DNA from: Candidatus Eremiobacteraceae bacterium | Lineage (GTDB): Bacteria > Vulcanimicrobiota > Vulcanimicrobiia > Eremiobacterales > Eremiobacteraceae | Assembly (NCBI GenBank): GCA_035314825.1 | Contig: DATFYX010000024.1 | Span: 1 to 38,659 of the forward strand | Reading direction: 5' to 3' | DNA: 38,659 nt | In this document: piece by piece, positions 1-38,659 of the stretch | How positions within the stretch are numbered: the first letter of the stretch is position 1 | How the letters are laid out: every line of letters starts with the position of its first letter | The notes under the pieces: generated by a model | Told to the model about the DNA's origin: nothing | The model's database searches: none | What the model saw: the letters and a program-made list of their open reading frames with translations, nothing else | Program-made: the position numbers and the translations under genes

Positions 1-1569
1 GCGGGAATGCTGTGGTGCAAGCAGTACTACAACTACGTCGTCTATCGCTGGCTGGAGGGCGATCCGGCGATGCCGCCGCCGCCGCCGCAACGCAAACGGG
101 GGCGCAACCGCACCTGGAAGCATCTCGAAGCAGACGACGTCATGTCCATGCCCGACAACTGGGAGTACCCATGGTTCGCCGCCTGGGATACGGCGTTCCA
201 CTGCATCACGCTCGCGCTCATCGACCCGGTATTCGCCAAGCGCCAGCTCGACCTGCTCACGCGCGAGTGGTACATGCATCCGAACGGGCACATGCCGGCG
301 TACGAATGGAGTTTCAACGACGCCAACCCGCCCGTGCACGCGTGGGCCGCGTACCGGGTCTACAAGATCGAACAAAAGATGTTCGGTAGCACCGACCGCA
401 TGTTCTTGGAGCGCGTCTTCCAAAAACTGCTGCTCAACTTCACCTGGTGGTGCAATCGCAGGGACGCCGAGGGCAATAACATCTTCCAGGGCGGCTTCCT
501 CGGCCTCGATAATATCGGCGCCTTCGACCGCAACGCCATGCTGTGGGAGCGCTCGCGCGTGGACCAAGCGGACGCGACGAGCTGGATGGGGGTCTATTGC
601 CTGAGCATGTTGGCCATCGCGGTCGAGCTCGCGCAGGAAAACCCGGTCTACGAGGATATCGCGACCAAATTCTTCGAGCACTTCGTCTACATCGCCGACG
701 CCATCAACGGCACGGGCGAAGACGCCATCGGCTTGTGGGACGATAAGACCGGCTTCTATTACGACGCGCTGGTGGTGGACGGCAAGCCGCCGATGCCGCT
801 GATGGTGCGTTCGATGGTCGGGCTCATCCCGCTCATGGCGGTTGCGACCGCCGAGGACGTGCAGGTCTCGATGCTGCCGAACTTCGAGCGCCGCCTGCAG
901 TGGTTCTTCCGCAACCGGCCCGATCTGCACGCGTTCGCCGCCAATCTGGGTACGAAGAGCGTGCGCGGCAAGCGCCTGCTGTCGATCGTGGATGAGGACA
1001 AACTGCGTCTGATACTCGCGAAAATGCTCGACGAATCGGAGTTCTTGAGCGGTCACGGCATCCGCTCGCTGTCGAAGTACCATCTGCAGCATCCGTACGA
1101 GCTGCGCATCGACGGCGACGTCCACGTCGTCGACTACGAGCCGGGCGAATCCACCACGCCGCTGTTCGGGGGCAACTCGAACTGGCGCGGGCCGGTGTGG
1201 TTCCCCTCGAACTACATGATCATCGAGGCGCTGCAGCGTTTCCATTACTATTTCGGCGATGAGTTCAAGGTCGAATGCCCCACCGGTTCGGGCAAGCTCA
1301 TGAACTTGTGGGAAGTGGCCTCGGAGCTCTCGCGCCGCCTCATCGACCTGTTCGTGCCCGGCAGCGACGGACGCCGGCCGATGCTCGGCGATTCCGAGAA
1401 GCTGCAACGCGATCCGAATTTCCGCGAGCTCTTGGTGTTCCCGGAGTACTTCAACGGCGACAACGGATACGGCCTCGGAGCGATGCATCAGACAGGCTGG
1501 ACCGGTCTGGTCGCCAAGCTGCTGCAGCAGAGCGCCGAATACTCGCGCCCAGAAAAAGGTCAGATATGA
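1..1569 (+). CDS. GH63-like glucosidase (MGH1-like), 5' end outside window
   Basis: The frame is open from base 1 (reading A-G-M-L-W), so the ATG at 7 is probably internal and the N-terminus lies upstream of the window. Known relatives run to roughly 850-900 residues, while about 522 are present here. The visible part has the conserved blocks of bacterial mannosyl-oligosaccharide-glucosidase-like (alpha/alpha)6 barrels: [16 protein letters not shown] at the left edge, [44 protein letters not shown], and a C-terminal [20 protein letters not shown]. It probably hydrolyses an alpha-glucosidic bond in an oligosaccharide, but the substrate cannot be read from the sequence. A poly-proline run (CCG repeats near 70-88) is a small oddity. 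Its stop overlaps the next gene's start, and glycogen synthase lies two genes on, which suggests alpha-glucan or compatible-solute metabolism. The family call is firm, the substrate is not. Confidence 0.85.
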
Positions 1570-2918: not shown

Positions 2919-2941
2919 CCACGTGATCGCGAGGCATTAGC

Positions 2942-4381
2942 GTGCGGGTGCTCTTCGCATCGCCAGAGATCTATCCGATGGCCAAGACCGGCGGGCTCGG
3001 CGACGTAGGCGCTGCGCTGCCGGCGGCATTGGCCGCCCAAGGCATGGACGTGCGCCTGGTGATGCCGGCCTATCCGTCTGCACTACGCGCCGTGGTCGAC
3101 GCAGCACCGCCGCGCTTCCTCGCGCAGTTCGAGGGGTTAGGGCGGGCGGACGTGATCGAAGCTGTGACGCCCGATTCACGGCTGCCGATCTGGCTGATCG
3201 CCAACCCAGACTTGTACGATCGCGGCGGTGACCCGTATCGGGACGACGCGGGCGCCGACTGGCCTGACAATCTCGAGCGCTTCGCGTTGTTCTCGCGGGC
3301 GGCGGCACGGTTGAGCGAGCAGGGCTCGCCGTTCGAATGGCAGCCGGACGTCGTGCACGCCAACGATTGGCACGCCGGTCTCATGGTGCCGCTGCTGCTG
3401 GGCGAGGCGCGCCGCCCGCGGCTGCTGTTCACGGTGCACAACATCGCGTTCCAGGGAACCTTTGCCGCCGAGCGGTTCGCGCTCACCGGGCTGCCAGAGG
3501 AGCTGCGCGCAGAGGCCGGCATCGGGCACGACGGCGGCTTCTCACTGCTCAAGGCCGGCCTGCAATTCGCGGACTGGGTCACGACCGTGAGCCCGACCTA
3601 CGCGTGCGAGATCCAGACGCCGCAATTCGGCTGCGGGTTGGAGGGTTTGCTCGCCGGCCGCGCAGAGAGCCTCAGCGGCATTCTCAACGGCGTAGACTAT
3701 TCGCTGTGGGATCCGGCTCGCGATGCGTCGCTGACGGCGCGGTACAGCGCCGAGGATCTATCGGGCAAAGCAGCATGCAAGGCCGCATTGCTGCGCGATT
3801 TCGGACTGCCTGAGTCTCCCGGCGCGCCGTTGTTCGGCATCGTGAGCCGTTTGACCGAGCAAAAAGGCATCGACCTCGTGCCAGCGGCGCTCGAGCGTGC
3901 GCTCGACGCCGGCGCCCAGCTGGTCGTCTTGGGCCGAGGCGACACGCCCTTCGAGCTGCTGCTGCAAGAGTTTGCAGCGGCGCGATCTGGCAATGTAGCG
4001 CTGCGCCTGACCTACGACGAGCCGCTCGCGCACGCGGTCGAGGCCGGAGCCGATATCTTCTTGATGCCCTCGCGCTTCGAACCGTCCGGGCTCAACCAGA
4101 TGTACAGTCTGCGCTACGGCACCCCGCCGATCGTCCATCGAGTGGGGGGGTTGGCCGACACCGTGGTGGATTCAGACGTCGCGTCGCTGCACGACGAGAC
4201 GGCGACCGGCTTCTGTTTCGACGAGCCGGCGGCGGCCGCGTTCGAGCAAGCGATTGCCCGCGCGCTTGCGCTCTTCGCCGACACGACGCAGTGGCGGCAG
4301 TTGCAGCGCAATGGGATGCGCCAGGATTTCAGCTGGCACCGGTCCGCGCACGAGTACATCGATCTTTACAACTCCCTCTAA
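2942..4381 (+). CDS. glgA: Glycogen synthase (GT5, ADP-glucose type)
   Basis: GlgA transfers glucose from ADP-glucose to the non-reducing end of an alpha-1,4-glucan in the cytoplasm. The protein is 479 residues, the normal length. It starts with the GT5 signature EIYPMAKTGGLGDV, whose KTGGL motif binds the sugar nucleotide. It continues with VHANDWHAGL, FTVHNIAFQG, NGVDYSLWDP, GIVSRLTEQKG and the C-terminal nucleotide-binding block PSRFEPSGLNQMYSLRYGTPPIV (split here across the EPSGL and RYGT motifs). The start is a GTG at 2942 with GAGG about 8 bases upstream. It follows the flavoprotein after 23 bases and probably shares its transcript. The GH63-like gene two positions upstream gives a plausible synthesis-and-trimming pair, but that link is inference. 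Confidence 0.95.
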   Translation: MRVLFASPEIYPMAKTGGLGDVGAALPAALAAQGMDVRLVMPAYPSALRAVVDAAPPRFLAQFEGLGRADVIEAVTPDSRLPIWLIANPDLYDRGGDPYRDDAGADWPDNLERFALFSRAAARLSEQGSPFEWQPDVVHANDWHAGLMVPLLLGEARRPRLLFTVHNIAFQGTFAAERFALTGLPEELRAEAGIGHDGGFSLLKAGLQFADWVTTVSPTYACEIQTPQFGCGLEGLLAGRAESLSGILNGVDYSLWDPARDASLTARYSAEDLSGKAACKAALLRDFGLPESPGAPLFGIVSRLTEQKGIDLVPAALERALDAGAQLVVLGRGDTPFELLLQEFAAARSGNVALRLTYDEPLAHAVEAGADIFLMPSRFEPSGLNQMYSLRYGTPPIVHRVGGLADTVVDSDVASLHDETATGFCFDEPAAAAFEQAIARALALFADTTQWRQLQRNGMRQDFSWHRSAHEYIDLYNSL

Positions 4382-4485
4382 ACAAGCTCTCATCAGCCTT
4401 TAAGCAGGAACGACAGCGCCGGCGGTATGCTTGACGAAGGATGCAACCGGCCCCGGAAGGGGCACCATACACAGAGGTACTGGAC

Positions 4486-4845
4486 ATGACACGCAACATC
4501 TTGACCCTTATCGCCATCGCAGGCGTGCTGGCGTGCGCGGCCGTCCGAGCTGACGCGCGCGTCATCTACGGCGGCCCCGCATTGGTGTTCACACCCGCCG
4601 TCGTGGCCGACGCCGATGACCGTTACGCTGGAGCGTACGACGTCCAGGGCGTCGTCACGAGCTTTGACCGCTTCAACATGACGCTGCGCGTCGACGGCCG
4701 GCAGTTCCCGGTGGTCCTGCATCAGGGCACCGTCATCCGCCCGACGGGCACGACGCTGGCGCCCAGCATGGTCGTGAACATCGCGGGCTACTGGCAGAAC
4801 GGCGCGTTCTTCGCCAATAAGATCGTCGTCGTCCGCTACTCGTGA
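4486..4845 (+). CDS. Small exported protein, DUF5666-like
   Basis: The protein is 119 residues with a clear signal peptide (MTRNILTLIAIAGVLACAAV, cleavage near ADA). The mature part is rich in beta strands: GVVTSFDRFNMTLRVDGRQF, then VVLHQGTVIRPTG and PSMVVNIAGYWQNGAFFANK. The alternation of a 'VxGVV' strand, a hydrophobic strand and 'G...F.A..I.V' resembles the OB-like DUF5666 repeats of exported proteins. This is a resemblance by eye, not a profile match. The ATG at 4486 is preferred over one at 4441 because it begins the signal peptide and has AGAGG about 9 bases upstream. It is followed after 20 bases by the FecR protein, so the two are probably co-transcribed. The function is unknown. 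Confidence 0.75.
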   Translation: MTRNILTLIAIAGVLACAAVRADARVIYGGPALVFTPAVVADADDRYAGAYDVQGVVTSFDRFNMTLRVDGRQFPVVLHQGTVIRPTGTTLAPSMVVNIAGYWQNGAFFANKIVVVRYS

Positions 4846-27452: not shown

Positions 27453-27471
27453 TTCGCTTGTGGAATCGATG

Positions 27472-27544
27472 CTCCCCGAGTTGGACCCGAACTAACGACA
27501 TTCTGATTAACAGTCAGACGCTCTACCAGCTGAGCTATCGGGGA
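27472..27544 (-). tRNA. tRNA-Asn(GTT), T-arm irregular
   Basis: The gene is 73 bases and folds as a tRNA: a 7-bp acceptor stem (TCCCCGA with TCGGGGA), D-arm GCTC/GAGC with loop AGCTGGTA, and anticodon arm TCTGA-CTGTTAA-TCAGA, giving anticodon GTT. The discriminator is G and CCA is not encoded. The T-arm is GTTAG-TTCGGGT-CCAAC, with an A-C mismatch in the stem and G in place of the near-universal A58. The second tRNA-Asn at the window end has GTTGG-TTCGAGT-CCAAC and encoded CCA. This copy may be functional but weak, or decaying. Confidence 0.85.
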
Positions 27545-27576
27545 ATGCCGACCGCCCGGACCCGGGCAACTCAAGC

Positions 27577-27605
27577 ATTATAGCAAACCGCTATCGGTCC
27601 TTCAA
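27577..27605 (-). promoter_or_regulatory. Consensus-like promoter of tRNA-Asn
   Basis: On the minus strand, TTGAAG (27600-27605) and a perfect TATAAT (27577-27582) are separated by exactly 17 bases, about 30 bases before the tRNA 5' end. This is the best sigma-70-type promoter seen in the window. Confidence 0.85.
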
Positions 27606-27612
27606 GCGCTCC

Positions 27613-28299
27613 CTAGCGCTTCTGGAAATTCGAGTTCACGTCCTGAACGGTCAACGATTTGCTGGAACCGTTAACGGTGAGGTTCGCAACGTAGTTGGTG
27701 CCATCGCCAAGCTGCCCGAACGCAGCGGCAATCGTCACGCCGTCCGAGGGGCCGCTTAGATACGTCGAGACATTCAGGCTGACGATCGCTTCTTGCGCGC
27801 GGTTGAACACCAAGGTCACCGAGTCGCCCGACTTGACGTAGTTGTGGATGATAAGGGAGACCGTGTTCGCGGCGCCACCGGATCCTAGGACGACCTGACC
27901 CTGTTGGTACAGCGATTGCAGTTTGCCAGGATCTGGCTGCGCATAACTTTGCGCGAGCGCGCCGATCTGTTTGGCATAGTCAGCGTAGTTCTGCTCGATG
28001 TGGTGCTTGATTCCGTGCGGACGCCCGGCCGGCGGGGGCGCGGACTCCAAAGACTTCTGCGGCTTGCCGTCCGGACCGATCTGCACCTGGTACTGCTCTT
28101 GATCCTTGACGTCGCCTCTGACCGAGATCGTCTCGGTCTGTTGCCAGGTGTACTGCGCGAGGCGTTGCTGATTCGCGCTGATGGAGGCTTTGATCTGCGC
28201 CAGCTTGGCCTGGAGCGAAGCGTTGTCGGCCAGCACCGGCGAGATCGAAACGGCGACCAGGCTCAGCACGCCGACCGCAGCGTGTCGGAACTTGCTCAT
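27613..28299 (-). CDS. Exported protein of unknown function, acidobacterial-type
   Basis: The protein is 228 residues. A signal peptide (AVGVLSLVAVSISPVLA) is followed by a helical, Gln-rich stretch, SLQAKLAQIKASISANQQRL, and the motif QYTWQQTETISVRGDVK with QEQYQVQIGPDGKPQK. It resembles a group of uncharacterised secreted proteins I recall from acidobacteria. The C-terminal half (SVTLVFNRAQEAIVSLNVST, and NYVANLTVNGSSKSL) is a probable beta domain. ATG 28299 is used, since the preceding TTG is not needed. It is the last gene of a three-gene run after the repeat protein, 19 bases away. The function is unknown. Confidence 0.75.
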   Translation of the reverse strand: MSKFRHAAVGVLSLVAVSISPVLADNASLQAKLAQIKASISANQQRLAQYTWQQTETISVRGDVKDQEQYQVQIGPDGKPQKSLESAPPPAGRPHGIKHHIEQNYADYAKQIGALAQSYAQPDPGKLQSLYQQGQVVLGSGGAANTVSLIIHNYVKSGDSVTLVFNRAQEAIVSLNVSTYLSGPSDGVTIAAAFGQLGDGTNYVANLTVNGSSKSLTVQDVNSNFQKR

Positions 28300-28318
28300 C
28301 AAGTGTTCTCTTTCCGAG

Positions 28319-28936
28319 TTACGGAGCGGTGACGACCGTGTAGTAGAGTCCGTTGGCTCCGTACGCAGGCTGGAACCATGTGGTACCGCAGACAGTATAC
28401 GTCACACCCGACACGACTTGAGCGGCGCAACCCGTTGCCGGCACCGTGGCCGTCCTTTCGCCGATCGAATACGCGACTGCCGCTCCCGCGACCGCAGCGC
28501 CGGCGATGCAGCCGGCACAACTCGAATAACAATTGTAGCAGCCGGCGGCGTATACCGGGGGCGGCGGGGGATAGCCGTAGTAGCCGCCCGTGTGGTACGC
28601 GCTGTTGTACGTCGCCGAGGTGGTGCCGCCGTACGTGTTCGTGTGCGTCGCACCGTTGCCGTACTGCCCTGACGTCGTGCCCCCGTAGACATTCGAGTGC
28701 GTGGCTCCGCTCCCGTACTTGCCCGAGGTGGTGCCGCCGTACGTGTTCGTATGCGTCGCACCGTTGCCGTACGAGCCCGACGTGTGGCCGCCGTAGGCGT
28801 TCGTATGCGACGTCGAGTCGTAGCTGTGCGACGTGCTGCCCCCGTACGCGTTGGCATGAGCGTAGGCGAACGCGGGGCTGCACTGCAACGCGCCCAGCGC
28901 GAGTCCGAGTGCTCCTATGGCGATCTTCTTCAACAT
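28319..28936 (-). CDS. Secreted protein with four 18-residue YGG repeats
   Basis: The protein is 205 residues. Signal peptide: KKIAIGALGLALGALQCSPA up to AFA. Residues 43-114 are four tandem 18-residue units, of the form THTNTYGGTTSGKYGSGA. Then come a Pro-Tyr segment, a Cys-rich patch (CYNCYSSCAGC), a glycine-zipper-like hydrophobic stretch (IAGAAVAGAAVAYSIG) and the C-terminal motif VTYTVCGTTWFQPAYGANGL, found in many small exported proteobacterial proteins. Three ATGs in a row occur (28942, 28939, 28936). The AGAGGA ribosome site is correctly spaced for the last. The repeats may form an extended, surface-exposed polymerising or adhesive region; that is inference. It is 25 bases after the DUF2092 gene. 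Confidence 0.8.
   Translation of the reverse strand: MLKKIAIGALGLALGALQCSPAFAYAHANAYGGSTSHSYDSTSHTNAYGGHTSGSYGNGATHTNTYGGTTSGKYGSGATHSNVYGGTTSGQYGNGATHTNTYGGTTSATYNSAYHTGGYYGYPPPPPVYAAGCYNCYSSCAGCIAGAAVAGAAVAYSIGERTATVPATGCAAQVVSGVTYTVCGTTWFQPAYGANGLYYTVVTAP
28595..28810 (-). repeat. Four tandem 54-bp coding repeats
   Basis: Four contiguous in-frame 54-bp units (216 bp) encode residues 43-114 of the secreted protein. The nucleotide copies are similar, for example the shared GTTCGT(A/G)TGCGTCGCACCG stretch on the plus strand, so the array may change copy number by slippage or recombination. Confidence 0.85.
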
Positions 28937-29940: not shown

Positions 29941-31260
29941 TCAGTTCGTTTTCGCGGCGACGGCGTTTGCGCCGTGGCATTTCTTATACTTTCTGGAGCT
30001 TCCGCAAGGGCAAAGCTCATTGCGGCCGGCCTTCGCGAATGCCGATGCGCGATCGCGTGTGTGCTCGGCGGCGAGCAGAGGCATGACGCCTTTGGCTTCT
30101 TGTCCTCGCTTCAGGAACTCGCCGATGAGCCGCATCGGTCTATCGATGTGATGGAAGAACGCTTTGTAGCCTTCGCACAGGTAATTCAGGCCTTGCTCGC
30201 CATCCGGGGTGGTGATGAAGCGATTCTTCGGACATTCGCCGTGACAGGCGAAACGCACGTCGCATTCTCGGCAATATTTCGGAAGCGATTCCAGCTTCGC
30301 ACGCCCGAAATCACGCTGAAAATCTGAATTGACCATCTCCCTCATCGGGCGTTCGCCGATATTGCCGAGCAAGTATTTCGGTTCGACGAAATGATCACAA
30401 GAGTAGAGATCGCCATTGTGCTCCAGCGCGAGCCCGGCTCCGCAAGTCGCATCGAACACACACATGCCGGATGGCAATCCTAGCCAGCTTCTTGCAGCTG
30501 CCTCAAACGTCTGCACGAAGACCTTCCCCACGTCGTAGCGCACCCACTCGTCAAAGACCGCGCTGAGGAAGTCGCCCAGCTGTTTGGGCAGCACGGATCG
30601 CTCCGAGACCTTCGATCCTTGTTGATACAGCGTCCGTCCATCGTCGTTCACGCGCTCGATGACCGGGATGAACTGGATCCATGTCGTCCGGGCCTCGTCG
30701 CGCAAGAAGCGATACACCTCGAGCGGGTGATCGCCGTTCACGCGATTGACCGTGGTCAGGATGTTGTACTCGACGCCGTGCTTTTGAAGCAGCCGTAGGC
30801 CGCGCATCACGTTGTCGAACGTCCCACGCCCGCCCTTATCAACACGATTGGTGTCGTGAAGCTCACGCGGTCCATCGATGCTGATGCCGATGAGGTAGTT
30901 GTTGGCCTTGAAGAACTCGCACCATTCGTCGGTCAGCAAGGTGCCGTTCGTCTGCAGCGTGTTCTCGAACACCATGCCCGGCTTTTTGTGTTTGTTCTGG
31001 AATGCAATCGCACGGCGATAGAAATCGACGCCCATGATCGTCGGCTCACCGCCTTGCCACGCCACGGTCACGTGGTTGCTGCGGTGCCCTTCGATCAACT
31101 GCCGGATGTAGGTCTCGAGCATAGCGTCGTCCATCCGGAACCGGCTCCCCGGATAGAGTTGTTCTTTGTCTAGAAAAAAGCAGTAGGAACAATCAAGGTT
31201 GCAAATCGCCCCTGCCGGTTTCGCCATCACATGAAATCGCGATAGAGTCCGTTCATCCAT
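29941..31260 (-). CDS. Radical SAM/SPASM anaerobic sulfatase maturase with SEC-C tail
   Basis: The protein is 439 residues. The radical SAM cluster motif is CNLDCSYC (Cys20, Cys24, Cys27). VAWQGGEPT and QTNGTLLTDEWCEFF are the SAM-binding and barrel strands, and IGISIDGPRELHD is typical of sulfatase-maturating enzymes. The SPASM auxiliary clusters are formed by the cysteines of MCVFDATCGAGLAL, LYSCDHF and KYCRECDVRFACHGECPKN. Such enzymes convert the Cys or Ser of a sulfatase active site to formylglycine. A C-terminal SEC-C metal-binding motif, GRNELCPCGSSRKYKKCHG, is an added feature, usually seen in SecA and assorted bacterial proteins. It lies 69 bases after the HAD pair, and its probable client is the CTPTR sulfatase at 36972-38432. 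Confidence 0.92.
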   Translation of the reverse strand: MDERTLSRFHVMAKPAGAICNLDCSYCFFLDKEQLYPGSRFRMDDAMLETYIRQLIEGHRSNHVTVAWQGGEPTIMGVDFYRRAIAFQNKHKKPGMVFENTLQTNGTLLTDEWCEFFKANNYLIGISIDGPRELHDTNRVDKGGRGTFDNVMRGLRLLQKHGVEYNILTTVNRVNGDHPLEVYRFLRDEARTTWIQFIPVIERVNDDGRTLYQQGSKVSERSVLPKQLGDFLSAVFDEWVRYDVGKVFVQTFEAAARSWLGLPSGMCVFDATCGAGLALEHNGDLYSCDHFVEPKYLLGNIGERPMREMVNSDFQRDFGRAKLESLPKYCRECDVRFACHGECPKNRFITTPDGEQGLNYLCEGYKAFFHHIDRPMRLIGEFLKRGQEAKGVMPLLAAEHTRDRASAFAKAGRNELCPCGSSRKYKKCHGANAVAAKTN

Positions 31261-31329: not shown

Positions 31330-32394
31330 CTACGACCCGAAGGCGAAGAGGCGTTTCCAGTCCTGCTTCATGCTGATGACGGACCACTTTCGGGCCTTCG
31401 CCTCATCATAGAGCGCCTGGGTAAACGTGCCGACCTTCGTATCCGGCAGGCCCGTGGCCGGGCCGTAGGCATATTCGCGTTGTGCATCGTCATGCAACAC
31501 GAGCATCATCAAGCACGCCCCGCCCCCTGACTGCGTGTACTCGAGCATCTGCTGATCACCGGTCGAGTTGCCGAACGCCGCTTGCGGCGGGCCTCCGATG
31601 AACAGATAGATATCCTCGGCTTTGCCCGACATGTTGTCGTTTAGCTCCAGCTTCGGCGCCCGCATCAAGACCGTCTGTCCGTTCTTGCCGTAGGTGTATT
31701 GCGTCTCGACCGCGGACCCGATGATTTGCCGGGATGGGATGCCGTACACGCGATCGCTATAGGCGCGGACGAAATCTTGACCGCCTCCGGTCACGATGTA
31801 GGTCATATAGCCGTTGGCACGCAGGTAGCGCATCACCTCAAGCATCGGCAGGTAGACAAGGTCGGTGTACAGATGGTTCCAGCGGGGCTGCTTCGCTGTG
31901 CCGATCCAATCCGCTGCTATGGCGCTGAATGCATTCACAGACATCCCAGTGTGGGTGGCAAAGACGATCGCTTCGAAATCCTTCACGGTGAACTTGGCCA
32001 TCGCAGCTTTGTCGCCAGAGAGCACCGACTTGAACGGCTCTGTGGTTTTCCACTCCGGATGCTGCGGCGCCAGCGCGATGACCCGATCGAACGCGAACAC
32101 GACTTGCGTATATATCGGGTGCTCAACCCACATGGTGCCGTCTTGATCAAAGGTGGCGACGCGTTGTGAGGGCGCGACGTACTTGGGATTGGAGCTGTCC
32201 GTGGTGACGCGCACGAATTCGAGGATCGCCTGCTTCGCCGCGCCATCGTTCCAGGACGGCAGCGGATCGGAGCCCGCTTCGCCGGTGAGCCCGACGGTTG
32301 CGAGCAGCGCGCCGCCGAACGCCAAGAACTCTTGGCGCGCCATTGCGCCGGGGCGGCCGCTTGGACGACTGGGTAAACCCTTGATTCGCTTCAT
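31330..32394 (-). CDS. HAD-superfamily phosphatase-like hydrolase (copy 1, probably exported)
   Basis: The protein is 354 residues. HAD motif I is ATFDQDGTMW (Asp83 nucleophile, Asp85 acid), the motif II region is YIVTGGGQDF, and the motif IV region is AFGNSTGDQQM. The N-terminus is basic, with ARQEFLAFGGALLATVGLTG resembling a degenerate Tat or Sec signal, so it may be exported. It is closely similar along its length to the gene before it. Both share VEHP(I/M)YTQ, ALAPQHPEWK and the final QALYD..A...W.VISMK. Its ATG overlaps the stop of copy 2 (ATGA), which indicates coupled translation. The substrate is unknown; phosphoserine-phosphatase-like annotations are not specific. Confidence 0.88.
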   Translation of the reverse strand: MKRIKGLPSRPSGRPGAMARQEFLAFGGALLATVGLTGEAGSDPLPSWNDGAAKQAILEFVRVTTDSSNPKYVAPSQRVATFDQDGTMWVEHPIYTQVVFAFDRVIALAPQHPEWKTTEPFKSVLSGDKAAMAKFTVKDFEAIVFATHTGMSVNAFSAIAADWIGTAKQPRWNHLYTDLVYLPMLEVMRYLRANGYMTYIVTGGGQDFVRAYSDRVYGIPSRQIIGSAVETQYTYGKNGQTVLMRAPKLELNDNMSGKAEDIYLFIGGPPQAAFGNSTGDQQMLEYTQSGGGACLMMLVLHDDAQREYAYGPATGLPDTKVGTFTQALYDEAKARKWSVISMKQDWKRLFAFGS

Positions 32395-33362
32395 GATGTT
32401 CTCCCTGATGTCGAAGCCTCGAAGGCGAAGAGGCGCTTCCAGTCGTTTTTCATACTGATGACGATCCAGCCCTTGGCCTTCGCGTCGTCATACAGCGCTT
32501 GAGTGAAGGTGCCGAACGGCGTGTCGGGCAGCCCGGTCGCCGGCCCGTAGAGATACTCCCGCGCCGCGTCGTCATGGAAGACGAGCATCATGAGGCGCGC
32601 GCCGCGATTCCCGCTCGTATACTCGAGCATCGCCTGATCACCCGTCGAGTTCCCGAACGCCGCGTGCGGACGGCGACCGAGAAAGAGGTAGATATCTTCG
32701 GGCTTGGCAGCGACGTCGTTAAAGAGAAGAATATCAGGCTGCTTCATGAGGACGCCGCGGCCCTCTGAATCTGACACATATTCAGTCTTGGCCGCAGAGC
32801 CGATGACGTGCTCTGGGGGTACTCCATACACCTTTTGCGCGAACGCGCGCACAAACGCTTGGCCTCCGCCGGTGACGAGATACACTCGGAAACCGCTGGC
32901 ACGCAGATAGTTCATCACCTCCAGCATGGGCTGGTAGGTGAGCTCCGTGTATGGCCTTCCCCAGCGCGGATCTCTCGCTTTCGCGATCCAATCGGCGACG
33001 ATCTCGGCAAACGCCTCGGTCGTCACTCCGGCATGCGTCGTCATCACGATCGCCTCTAGATCTTTCATGGTGAATTTCGACAGCGCGGCCTTGTCGCCCG
33101 CGAGCACCGACTTGAACGGCTCGGTGTTCTTCCACTCAGGATGCTGTGGCGCCAGCGCCACAACCCGATCGAGCGCGAAGACGAGTTGCGTGTACATCGG
33201 GTGCTCGACCCACAGCGTGCCATCCTGATCGAAGGTCGCGAAGCGGTCTTCTTCCCGCACGAAATCGGGGCTCGCCTTGTCGGTCGCCCTCTGCACAAAA
33301 TCTACGATTGCCGCCTTCGCGGGCCCCTCGTTCCATGAAGGCAACAGGTCAGCGACGGTCAT
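32391..33362 (-). CDS. HAD-superfamily phosphatase-like hydrolase (copy 2)
   Basis: The protein is 323 residues and is the tandem paralogue of the following gene. It has the same catalytic parts: ATFDQDGTLWVEHP (nucleophile and acid aspartates), YLVTGGGQAFVRAF and AFGNSTGDQAMLEY. It differs in beginning directly at MTVADLLPSWNEGP, with no signal-like segment, so it is probably cytoplasmic while copy 1 may be exported. ATG 33362 is used; GTG 33365 directly before it would add one residue. It follows the outer-membrane factor gene after 53 bases and is likely part of the same transcript. Confidence 0.88.
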   Translation of the reverse strand: MTVADLLPSWNEGPAKAAIVDFVQRATDKASPDFVREEDRFATFDQDGTLWVEHPMYTQLVFALDRVVALAPQHPEWKNTEPFKSVLAGDKAALSKFTMKDLEAIVMTTHAGVTTEAFAEIVADWIAKARDPRWGRPYTELTYQPMLEVMNYLRASGFRVYLVTGGGQAFVRAFAQKVYGVPPEHVIGSAAKTEYVSDSEGRGVLMKQPDILLFNDVAAKPEDIYLFLGRRPHAAFGNSTGDQAMLEYTSGNRGARLMMLVFHDDAAREYLYGPATGLPDTPFGTFTQALYDDAKAKGWIVISMKNDWKRLFAFEASTSGRTS

Positions 33363-33415
33363 CACGGTGCTTTCCGTTCCACGTGCCTAGGTTCACCTCG
33401 TGAAGACGCCTTGTC

Positions 33416-36526: not shown

Positions 36527-36705
36527 GTGGCCCTCAGGTGAGCTGGCGGACCACCTCGCCGCCTTGGTATCTCCTCCGTGCGTGCCCTAGTCGGAGAGAA
36601 GCAATGCGTCCCCTCGCAATAGCCTGTATGTGAAGTTCATTGAAAGATGCGAAGGAGTGTCAACGCCCGTAAGAGGCCGACGTTTCTTCCTGCGGCTATG
36701 TTCAA

Positions 36706-36754
36706 CCTACTACCGTTACAGAGGACCCGCACGCTCTGACGCAGTGCGGGTCTT
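36706..36754. repeat. Direct repeat copy 1 with decayed terminator hairpin
   Basis: CCTACTACCGTTACAGA is followed by a hairpin (ACCCGCAC/GTGCGGGT) and CTT. The 17-base left part and both hairpin arms are identical to copy 2 at 38549-38596. The two bases next to the hairpin (GG instead of AA) break the T-run that copy 2 has on the minus strand, so this copy is probably no longer an intrinsic terminator. Confidence 0.8.
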
Positions 36755-36775
36755 GGCTGAATTCTGACTAACGGT
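36752..36775 (-). pseudogene. Possible tRNA-Asn fragment
   Basis: Directly after repeat copy 1 come CTTGGCT (the complement of a tRNA 3' end reading AGCCAAG, as in the intact copy) and TTCTGACTAACGGT. The latter matches the anticodon-arm strand TTCTGATTAACAGT of the end-of-window tRNA-Asn at 12 of 14 bases. The region between them is lost. The match is short, so chance is not excluded. Confidence 0.4.
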
Positions 36776-36971
36776 GATTCACGCGCTTCGGGGGACCGCA
36801 TGGGCGGACCCGAGCTACGGCGGAGTTCCTTGGGCGATAGCCTCAATCCTGAGAACTTCGAAAAAGGGACGCCCACCTAACTCCTTCAATTTGCCCTGCG
36901 TCAAGTACCCCTGCTGTGCGCAGTTCTCGCGGTGCTGCCACTTACCCGCAATGACGTTCTGGAGGCATCCC

Positions 36972-38432
36972 ATGATCAAAGCTCGTTACTTAGTCGCCTT
37001 GCTTTGCGCGATCGCGCTTGCACTGAGCGCTTCGAGTCGAGCGGCACAGGCCGCCGACCAGAAGCCCAACATCGTGTTCATCCTGGTCGACAATGTCGGC
37101 TGGGGAACTTTTGGGGTGTACGGTGGAACAGTGGCCACGCCGCGCATCGACGAGCTGGCCAACAGCGGTATCCGTTTCAACAATTACAACGTGGAGGTGC
37201 AATGCACGCCGACGCGCTCGGCCATCCACACCGGGCGCTACTCGGTTCGGTCAGGGACATATACGGTACCCTTGCCAGGGCAAGGGCCGGGTGGAATGTC
37301 GCCGTGGGAATACACGATTGCCAAACTCCTCTCGGATGCCGGATACACCACCGCGCTCTACGGCAAGTGGCACCTTGGCGATACCCAGGGCCGTCTGCCG
37401 AATGACCAGGGCTACGACGAGTGGTGGGGCCTTCCGGAGACCTGGGATGTGGCCGGTTACACGTCCTATCCGCTGTTCAAGGAGAGCGGCGAGCCCGTCC
37501 CCATGCTGTGGGAGGGCAAGAAGGGCCAACCATCGAGACCGGTGATGCCGATCAACCTCAGCAATCGGGCAATCATGGATGAGAAATACATTATTCCGAA
37601 GACGATTGACTTCATCAAACGTAATGCAACGGCGAAGAAGCCGTTCTTCGTGTACGTCGGTTACTCAGAAATGCATCCACCGATGATCGCCAATCCGAAT
37701 TTTGCGGGTAAGTCCACGCAGCGCGGCGGCGTGTTTGCGGACCTGGTCGCCGAAATGGACTACCGCGTCGGCCAAATCATGGATGCCATCAAGGCGGCGG
37801 GCATCGACGACAATACCATCGTCATCCTCAGTAGCGACAATGGCAGCGGTGGGGCAATCCTGCAGCTTGGCGGAAGTGAGCAAGGGCCATGGCGCGGAGA
37901 TTTCTTCAACACGCCATTTGAGGGGAGCTATCGCGTGCCGGCGATGATCCGCTGGCCCGGGCATGTGCCTGCGGGTGTCGTCACGCAAGAAATGCTCGCG
38001 GACGTGGATTGGATGCCGACGCTGGCCGGAATGGTCGGTGCGCCGAATCTGGTGCCCAAGGACCGACCGATCGACGGCATCGATGCCTCTGCCTTCATGC
38101 TGGGGAAAAGCCCATCAACCGGCCGTGACAGCTATATGCTCTTCGATACGGACGCCCAGCTCATGTCGATCAAATGGAAGATCTACAAGACGATCTTTCG
38201 CTACACCGATGCGCAAATAAGACCCGCCATGGAGCAACCCTACGTAACGCCTGAGCTTCCCATGATCTACGACCTCAGCAGCGATCCGCACGAAGACAAC
38301 AACTTGTTCTATAGCGATCTGACGTGCGGTTGGATCCTCGGTCCGGACTTCAAGATCATCGGAGCATATGAGCGCAGCATAAAGGAGTTTCCGAACATCA
38401 AACCGGGCGAGGACTTCAAAGGCTATAGGTAG
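36972..38432 (+). CDS. Exported arylsulfatase (family S1, Cys-type)
   Basis: The protein is 486 residues. A signal peptide (YLVALLCAIALALSASSRAA up to AQA) is followed by the sulfatase core. NIVFILVDNVGWG carries the metal ligands Asp40 and Asn41 (classical enzymes have Asp-Asp). The formylglycine motif is CTPTR (Cys78 to Arg82). YGKWHLGD has Lys132 and His134, EMHPP has His235, and SSDNGSGG has Asp289 and Asn290. It hydrolyses a sulfate ester in the periplasm after Cys78 is converted to formylglycine. The only maturase candidate in view is the radical SAM protein at 29941-31260. ATG 36972 has GGAGG seven bases upstream; a frame starting at 36774 runs through non-coding sequence and is rejected. 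The natural substrate is unknown. Confidence 0.93.
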   Translation: MIKARYLVALLCAIALALSASSRAAQAADQKPNIVFILVDNVGWGTFGVYGGTVATPRIDELANSGIRFNNYNVEVQCTPTRSAIHTGRYSVRSGTYTVPLPGQGPGGMSPWEYTIAKLLSDAGYTTALYGKWHLGDTQGRLPNDQGYDEWWGLPETWDVAGYTSYPLFKESGEPVPMLWEGKKGQPSRPVMPINLSNRAIMDEKYIIPKTIDFIKRNATAKKPFFVYVGYSEMHPPMIANPNFAGKSTQRGGVFADLVAEMDYRVGQIMDAIKAAGIDDNTIVILSSDNGSGGAILQLGGSEQGPWRGDFFNTPFEGSYRVPAMIRWPGHVPAGVVTQEMLADVDWMPTLAGMVGAPNLVPKDRPIDGIDASAFMLGKSPSTGRDSYMLFDTDAQLMSIKWKIYKTIFRYTDAQIRPAMEQPYVTPELPMIYDLSSDPHEDNNLFYSDLTCGWILGPDFKIIGAYERSIKEFPNIKPGEDFKGYR

Positions 38433-38458
38433 TTCCGCGCGGCAGGGCCGAGTGATAA

Positions 38459-38484
38459 GGAACCGCGGAGCTCTCCGCGGTCCC
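38459..38484 (+). terminator. Hairpin after the sulfatase gene
   Basis: ACCGCGGA pairs with TCCGCGGT around GCTC, 30 bases after the stop codon, followed by a pyrimidine-rich CCCTCCTCGTTCTC stretch. It probably ends the sulfatase transcript. Confidence 0.55.
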
Positions 38485-38548
38485 TCCTCGTTCTCGACGC
38501 ACCAGCTATTGGATTCGGACTGCAGCAGCGCGTTGTGACAGGCTTGAC

Positions 38549-38596
38549 CCTACTACCGTTACAGAAAACCCGCACGCTTTACGAGGTGCGGGTCTT
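38549..38596. repeat. Direct repeat copy 2, containing tRNA terminator
   Basis: This is the partner of the repeat at 36706-36754: the same 17-base left block and the same hairpin arms, with a different loop. The pair brackets the sulfatase gene, about 1.84 kb apart and in the same orientation. Confidence 0.8.
38563..38593 (-). terminator. Intrinsic terminator of the second tRNA-Asn
   Basis: On the minus strand ACCCGCAC and GTGCGGGT form an 8-bp stem followed by TTTTC, about 20 bases past the tRNA 3' end. Confidence 0.75.
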
Positions 38597-38610
38597 CTTC
38601 TTGTTGAGCT

Positions 38611-38659
38611 TGGCTCCCCGAGTTGGACTCGAACCAACGACTTTCTGATTAACAGTCAG
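38611..38659 (-). tRNA. tRNA-Asn(GTT), 5' part beyond window
   Basis: The 3' two-thirds are visible: anticodon arm CTGA-CTGTTAA-TCAG (anticodon GTT), a perfect T-arm GTTGG-TTCGAGT-CCAAC with the conserved A58, acceptor strand TCGGGGA, discriminator G and an encoded CCA. The D-arm and 5' acceptor strand lie past the window end. It appears to be the intact counterpart of the copy at 27472-27544. Confidence 0.85.

Follow-up and report, generated by a model that had tools for sequence, protein, structure and literature searches.

Near the right end of the window, by which we mean the whole 38,659-nucleotide (nt) stretch analysed here, a sulfatase gene lies beside a gene for the asparagine transfer RNA (tRNA-Asn), and we consider it probable that this sulfatase was acquired as a single-gene cassette lacking an integrase, inserted 3' of a tRNA-Asn integration hotspot and either moved in trans or deprived of its integrase since. 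The window is one whole contig (C24, GenBank DATFYX010000024.1) of a Candidatus Eremiobacteraceae bacterium (G000, assembly GCA_035314825.1; 2.55 Mb, 89 contigs), and the unit in question, 36755-38612, measures 1858 base pairs (bp) and is bounded by a conserved tRNA-Asn at a fixed genomic place.

The sulfatase is flanked by direct repeats, 36701-36735 matching 38544-38578 (89%) and 36739-36754 matching 38581-38596 (88%), which taken as a single match give 88% identity over 49 nt (E = 1e-9 in a whole-genome comparison). Each copy consists of a terminator hairpin and a distal motif, the hairpin of the right copy being the terminator that follows the intact tRNA-Asn (GTT). A preliminary description of this DNA had reported both the repeats of about 49 bp and the identity of the right copy, and both claims hold, the latter through a second contig: the window stops inside the tRNA gene, and C65, whose overlap with the window end is exactly 141 nt long, completes a 76-nt tRNA followed by hemN, hemG and hemH. 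The 16-nt core of the repeat, CTACTACCGTTACAGA, with a chance expectation of 0.06 in the window, occurs at only two sites across the genome; a third match, on C65, was rejected as a separate site, being the same place within the contig overlap. That the repeat is merely a widespread terminator, a possibility raised in the same description, is rejected on account of the E-values and the uniqueness of the core to these two places, and the left repeat region, searched across the class, has no counterpart in other genomes save one weak 25-nt match.

Ahead of the left repeat copy, read in tRNA orientation, stands ACCGTTAGTCAGAAT-TC-AGCCAAG. With the T-arm deleted, this sequence can be aligned to tRNA nt 31-45 and the tRNA 3' end, an alignment to the 3' half that only 4 of 5000 shuffled sequences equalled (1 to 11 of 5000 under other gap costs). 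The suggestion that a deleted tRNA-Asn fragment accompanies the left copy is thereby borne out, as is the decay proposed for the displaced flank: the terminator repeat is clear and the tRNA part decayed. The remnant stands at the expected place (p ~0.001) and starts at the same tRNA position as the intact 3' halves found in relatives.

A relative of the same genus, G002, offers a view of the locus without the sulfatase. It carries a single tRNA-Asn whose only terminator differs in sequence, has an SDR gene about 135 nt further on, and shows neither a sulfatase nor a second tRNA piece or repeat at this locus; an M50 peptidase that is 24 kb from the tRNA in the window is 3.2 kb from it there. 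The single-terminator, sulfatase-free relative anticipated by the preliminary description is thus found, and it does not hold both repeats, although the completeness of G002 is 72% and further differences affect its downstream region, so that the empty-site comparison calls for caution. Another genome of the genus, G001, is unusable as a control, its contig ending about 50 nt beyond hemN, before the tRNA. Many family members have hemG/hemH upstream of tRNA-Asn (G005, G007, G009, G010, G011 and G013), the order hemH-hemG-hemN is shared with G001, and the tRNA-Asn loci of family relatives contain no sulfatase, efflux or maturase genes, other cargo being found instead.

Foreign origin of the sulfatase and its recurrence at tRNA genes

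The encoded protein belongs to sulfatase family S1 by both the Pfam cut-off (PF00884, E = 8.6e-49, 166.9 bits against a cut-off of 25) and the active-site motif C/S-x-P-x-R, present as CTPTR; among the NCBIfam equivalogs for named arylsulfatases and choline sulfatases, the best model scores 99 bits against a cut-off of 481. Its nearest homologues, 70-74% identical, come from Polynucleobacter, Caulobacter and Bauldia, and in the tree it falls within a clade of 14 rows (100/99), the 13 others all being from Pseudomonadota. The closest sulfatase in its own class, at 53-55%, is a paralogue encoded by the same genome, and an origin within the class is rejected by the tree. This phylogenetic placement marks the gene as horizontally acquired and of proteobacterial origin; its coding guanine-plus-cytosine fraction is 0.58, below the window mean of 0.63. 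A paralogue in the same genome, beside tRNA-Val (C3, L078), was not counted as a parallel case, the tRNA there not being directly repeated at the sulfatase.

The homologue in Polynucleobacter is the leading gene of a module that also encodes a second sulfatase, an outer-membrane protein and a formylglycine-generating enzyme, and this module is repeatedly found at tRNA genes. It lies 182 nt 3' of tRNA-Ser in L090, where a 14-nt copy of the tRNA-Ser 3' end, 5.4 kb off, closes the unit; the distance is 187 nt 3' of tRNA-Ser for L094 and 240 nt 3' of tRNA-Met for L091, and in L102 the module comes 262 nt after a tRNA-Met 3' half. In P. alcilacus an intact tRNA-Arg is followed by five tRNA-Arg(TCT) 3' halves in a 17-kb array, with the module situated between two of these halves, and the class integrase profile detects no integrase in the array; that profile was built from six integrases of a phylum other than that of Polynucleobacter, so a divergent integrase could be missed. 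Because some of the Polynucleobacter loci share ancestry, these cases amount to about three independent tRNA addresses (Ser, Met, Arg) beside the Asn of the window, and since no tRNA piece is seen near the sulfatase in L092, L095, L097 and L098, the link between sulfatase and tRNA is frequent and not universal. The module (L090, L093, L102) shares with the window the homologous sulfatase, the position at tRNA genes or tRNA halves and the lack of a visible integrase; it differs in having four genes with its own formylglycine-generating enzyme, in the tRNAs used, and in a tRNA orientation opposite to that of the window. We regard the reuse of this sulfatase at tRNA genes across phyla as the most interesting part of the present results.

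3' halves of tRNA-Asn and tRNA-Asp across the class

A search of 117 genomes of the class with the tRNA-Asn sequence recovered intact copies as well as fragments. The fragments, 3' halves starting at nt 31-33 in the anticodon loop (...CTGTTAATCAG...), lie downstream of the intact gene, each followed in the relatives by its own hairpin; they are present in G003 (two), G004, G005, G019 (three), G020, G024, G035 and G051, and further in G109 and G115. Tyrosine integrases directly adjoin tRNA-Asn or a fragment in seven genomes (G004, G006, G019, G020, G035, G036, G043), and small units of 0.7-2.3 kb free of an integrase occur in four (G003, G024, G051, G115), with a cargo of one or two ordinary genes such as those for SnoaL (0.7 kb), a cupin (0.9 kb) and a copper amine oxidase N-domain protein (1.2 kb). 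Some elements, in G004 and G006, end in a full tRNA-Asn that has an integrase immediately upstream. In G006 a tRNA-Asn 5' half (L138 8071-8111; nt 1-41, 100%) adjoins hemG, and a full tRNA-Asn (L156 2284-2359) is located 40.7 kb away with a broken-up integrase directly upstream; this element apparently carries a whole tRNA in at its distal end.

Comparable arrangements are found at tRNA-Asp. The genome of the window has on C88 an intact tRNA-Asp, a 1.6-kb unit with a HEAT-repeat protein, a 3' half and a truncated integrase, and the tRNA-Asp array on C25 of G003 holds a sulfatase in one unit and, on the same contig, a DUF3302-HlyD-efflux cluster; the repeats of this array agree at 88-90% over about 190 nt, a likeness that extends beyond the tRNA part. 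Several further observations concern these loci. The tRNA-Asp 3' halves of the window's genome, on C88 and C35, share an upstream arm (L159 5453-7775, L160 256-300, L161 371-415). The tandem repeat of about 190 nt in G003 is made up of GTGTAGCATAAG-type short repeats, a conserved stretch and the tRNA-Asp 3' half; it recurs in L162 (G003:C25) at 3681, 6985, 9999, 10760 and 19343, and also in L164 at 9977 and L165 at 1472, the array units measure 0.8 to 8.6 kb, and a repeat 89% alike is present in another genus (G009). In G000 a tRNA-Asp 3' half is followed by a copper amine oxidase N-domain protein (L160 368-1117), and a protein with the same domain fills the tRNA-Asn unit of G024 (L081 1303-2013), which is the same kind of cargo at different tRNAs.

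Insertion weighed against its rivals

The repeats, remnant and relatives suggest site-specific recombination, with an integrase supplied in trans, as the cause here. A cassette bearing a tRNA-Asn 3' half and terminator would recombine with the chromosomal gene at the anticodon-loop region through a tyrosine integrase acting in trans or since lost; on the right side the tRNA and its terminator would be restored, and the displaced 3' half with the old terminator would come to lie left of the cargo. Being under no selection, this displaced copy would then decay, most of its T-arm being lost. The preliminary description had proposed insertion at, or duplication of, the tRNA-Asn 3' flank, and such an origin gains support from G002, the 3' halves of the class, the foreign sulfatase and the Polynucleobacter loci.

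Several points weigh against insertion of this kind. No integrase is found in any frame of the window by a hidden Markov model (HMM) of the tRNA-Asn integrases of the class, nor in the annotation, in keeping with the earlier remark that none is visible; movement of the unit would therefore depend on an integrase elsewhere, or the unit would be stranded. Matching terminators stand on the two sides of the sulfatase, whereas several relatives have a new one at the restored tRNA. The remnant is too decayed to be detected by plain BLAST. The sequence 5' of it bears a weak likeness to the leader and D-arm of a second, full-length tRNA-Asn in the window (6-18 of 2000 shuffles), which integration at the anticodon loop would not leave behind; this match emerged after several gap costs and two targets had been tried and is accordingly treated as suggestive only, and the remnant may extend, in decayed form, to about 36813. 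Finally, sulfatase and tRNA converge in the window but run in the same direction in Polynucleobacter, so conservation does not extend to the whole cassette.

The second tRNA-Asn, called by ARAGORN, sits with its promoter 11 kb from the intact copy, with which it shares promoter and tRNA over 138 nt (27471-27608, 93%). It is probably non-functional, a pseudogene, judging from the replacement of A58 by G, a T-stem mismatch and the lack of an encoded CCA. The preliminary description listed the flanking repeats correctly and overlooked this gene, the third tRNA-Asn trace of the window, as well as an anaerobic sulfatase maturase at 29941-31260 on the minus strand (TIGR03942, 488 bits against a cut-off of 349). 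The maturase belongs to a block that further comprises a DUF2092 protein, two HAD hydrolases, an outer-membrane efflux protein, an HlyD-like adaptor and a DUF3302 protein. Close relatives of the adaptor and of the maturase are each present in only 1 of 60 other genomes, and from this the whole stretch between the two full-length tRNA-Asn copies is accessory. The sulfatase, being of the Cys type (CTPTR), needs a maturase, and the anaerobic one, 6 kb away, could fill that role.

It is this full-length copy that makes duplication a real rival. A segmental duplication of the promoter-tRNA-Asn-terminator unit, involving no recombinase, would have given three copies, two of them decayed (at 36.7 and 27.5 kb), with foreign genes inserted between them by homologous or illegitimate recombination. 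A copy with a promoter and 93% identity over 138 nt is not a simple product of 3'-half integration, and duplication would also accommodate the same-type terminators and the leader and D-arm likeness of the 36.7-kb remnant. We nevertheless hold it unlikely, for the displaced copies seen throughout the class are not full copies but 3' halves sharing one starting point, the anticodon loop, integrases are present at tRNA-Asn sites, and the elements of G004 and G006, carrying a full tRNA at one end, make a full-length copy compatible with integration. The mobile unit might instead be the whole 11-kb stretch between the full-length tRNA-Asn genes, the 36.7-kb remnant being an internal scar. All intervening genes are rare in the class, sulfatase and possible maturase are found together, and the DUF3302-HlyD-efflux cluster appears again in the tRNA-Asp-bounded array of G003; the Polynucleobacter homologues, however, lack such maturase or efflux neighbours, and a boundary between the two blocks is set by the remnant and the terminator belonging to it, which leaves this larger unit rather improbable. 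Co-transfer of the sulfatase with the efflux and maturase block was likewise rejected as a candidate, no such neighbours being seen in Polynucleobacter or Caulobacter. Coincidence, with two common tRNA-type terminators happening to flank the sulfatase, could draw on the shortness of the remnant, which has about 24 matched letters and needs gaps, but it is hardly credible given a 49-nt repeat unique in the genome, a remnant at its expected position and a sulfatase that recurs at tRNA genes elsewhere.

Known systems, significance and other features

Gene gain beside tRNA genes is an already known route in bacteria. In additive flexible genomic islands a tRNA is the insertion target of cassettes, as described in Alteromonas (PMC4119200), Ca. 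Actinomarinales (PMC7771536) and Ca. Methylopumilus (PMC10872708), in the last with cassettes of 330 bp-42 kb and 1 to 63 coding sequences. Such islands admit single-gene cassettes and metabolic cargo, and the window unit likewise has a conserved tRNA boundary, a cargo that varies at the same place, and a cargo of horizontal origin. Unlike them, it shows a strongly decayed displaced tRNA, a repeat that spans the terminator, and a full-length second tRNA-Asn with promoter 11 kb off. The unit is best read as a partly decayed cassette of this kind, integrase-less and either mobilised in trans or stranded. Islander tRNA-gene (tDNA) islands with an anticodon-centred attP, type A (PMC4383910), share the intact tDNA at one end, the same-orientation displaced fragment at the other and the anticodon-loop crossover; they call for an integrase and at least 2 kb, whereas the window unit has no integrase, only 1858 bp and a damaged fragment. 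The tycheposons of Prochlorococcus, going by the account of them in PMC10872708, are 4-200 kb long with a tyrosine recombinase, and on that account they resemble the window unit in their tRNA-bounded metabolic cargo and differ from its 1.9 kb, single gene and lack of a recombinase. With regard to integron cassette arrays, the class tRNA-Asn integrase profile finds no integrase in the window, and the repeats are tRNA-derived. Literature searches on tRNA-cassette arrays yielded the additive islands and Islander, and nothing on the present class.

An inserted cassette would explain an isolated foreign sulfatase beside a tRNA gene, an association that is not accidental because the same enzyme stands next to tRNA genes of four kinds across two phyla. 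Standard island finders filter out units that are as small as this and lack an integrase (PMC4383910), which means that the transfer of single genes anchored at tRNAs may be undercounted, most of all in uncultured groups for which the only genomes are assemblies interrupted at repeats of this type. A bolder idea, which we think doubtful, is that tRNA genes of this class and of Polynucleobacter anchor integrase-free arrays of single-gene cassettes whose sole mobile-element component is a shared upstream arm joined to a tRNA 3' half, one recombinase acting in trans in integron-like fashion and carrying the same sulfatase between phyla.

Features of the tRNA-Asn locus, with coordinates in the window
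Feature	Position	Strand	Remarks
Intact tRNA-Asn(GTT), 3' part (nt 28-76)	38611..38659	-	5' part on contig C65, L004:6176-6251
Right repeat: hairpin terminator of the intact tRNA-Asn and distal motif TCTGTAACGGTAGTAGG	38544..38596	-	
Sulfatase, 486 aa, PF00884 and SGSH_C, CTPTR, convergent with the tRNA	36972..38432	+	
Decayed tRNA-Asn remnant, ACCGTTAGTCAGAAT and AGCCAAG, T-arm deleted	36752..36775	-	
Left repeat: second copy of terminator and distal motif	36701..36754	-	
Second full-length tRNA-Asn, probably a pseudogene	27471..27544	-	impairment inferred from sequence
Accessory block between remnant and second tRNA-Asn	27545..36700		genes by domain annotation

The fixed 141-nt length of the overlap suggests an assembly-graph branch at the junction of C24 and C65; strain variation at the tRNA would fit such a branch, though this is only a hint. 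Within the accessory block, two adjoining HAD hydrolase genes (31330-33365) encode proteins 65% identical, a tandem duplication, and an open reading frame assigned to no Pfam family (28299-28883, minus strand) contains a 54-nt tandem repeat at 28600-28809. Upstream of hemN, L004 encodes two proteins without a Pfam family (2935-3816 and 3823-4731), relatives of which (29-34%) adjoin sulfatases in Polynucleobacter, Caulobacter and Pontiellaceae, and these proteins are possible outer-membrane partners of sulfatases.
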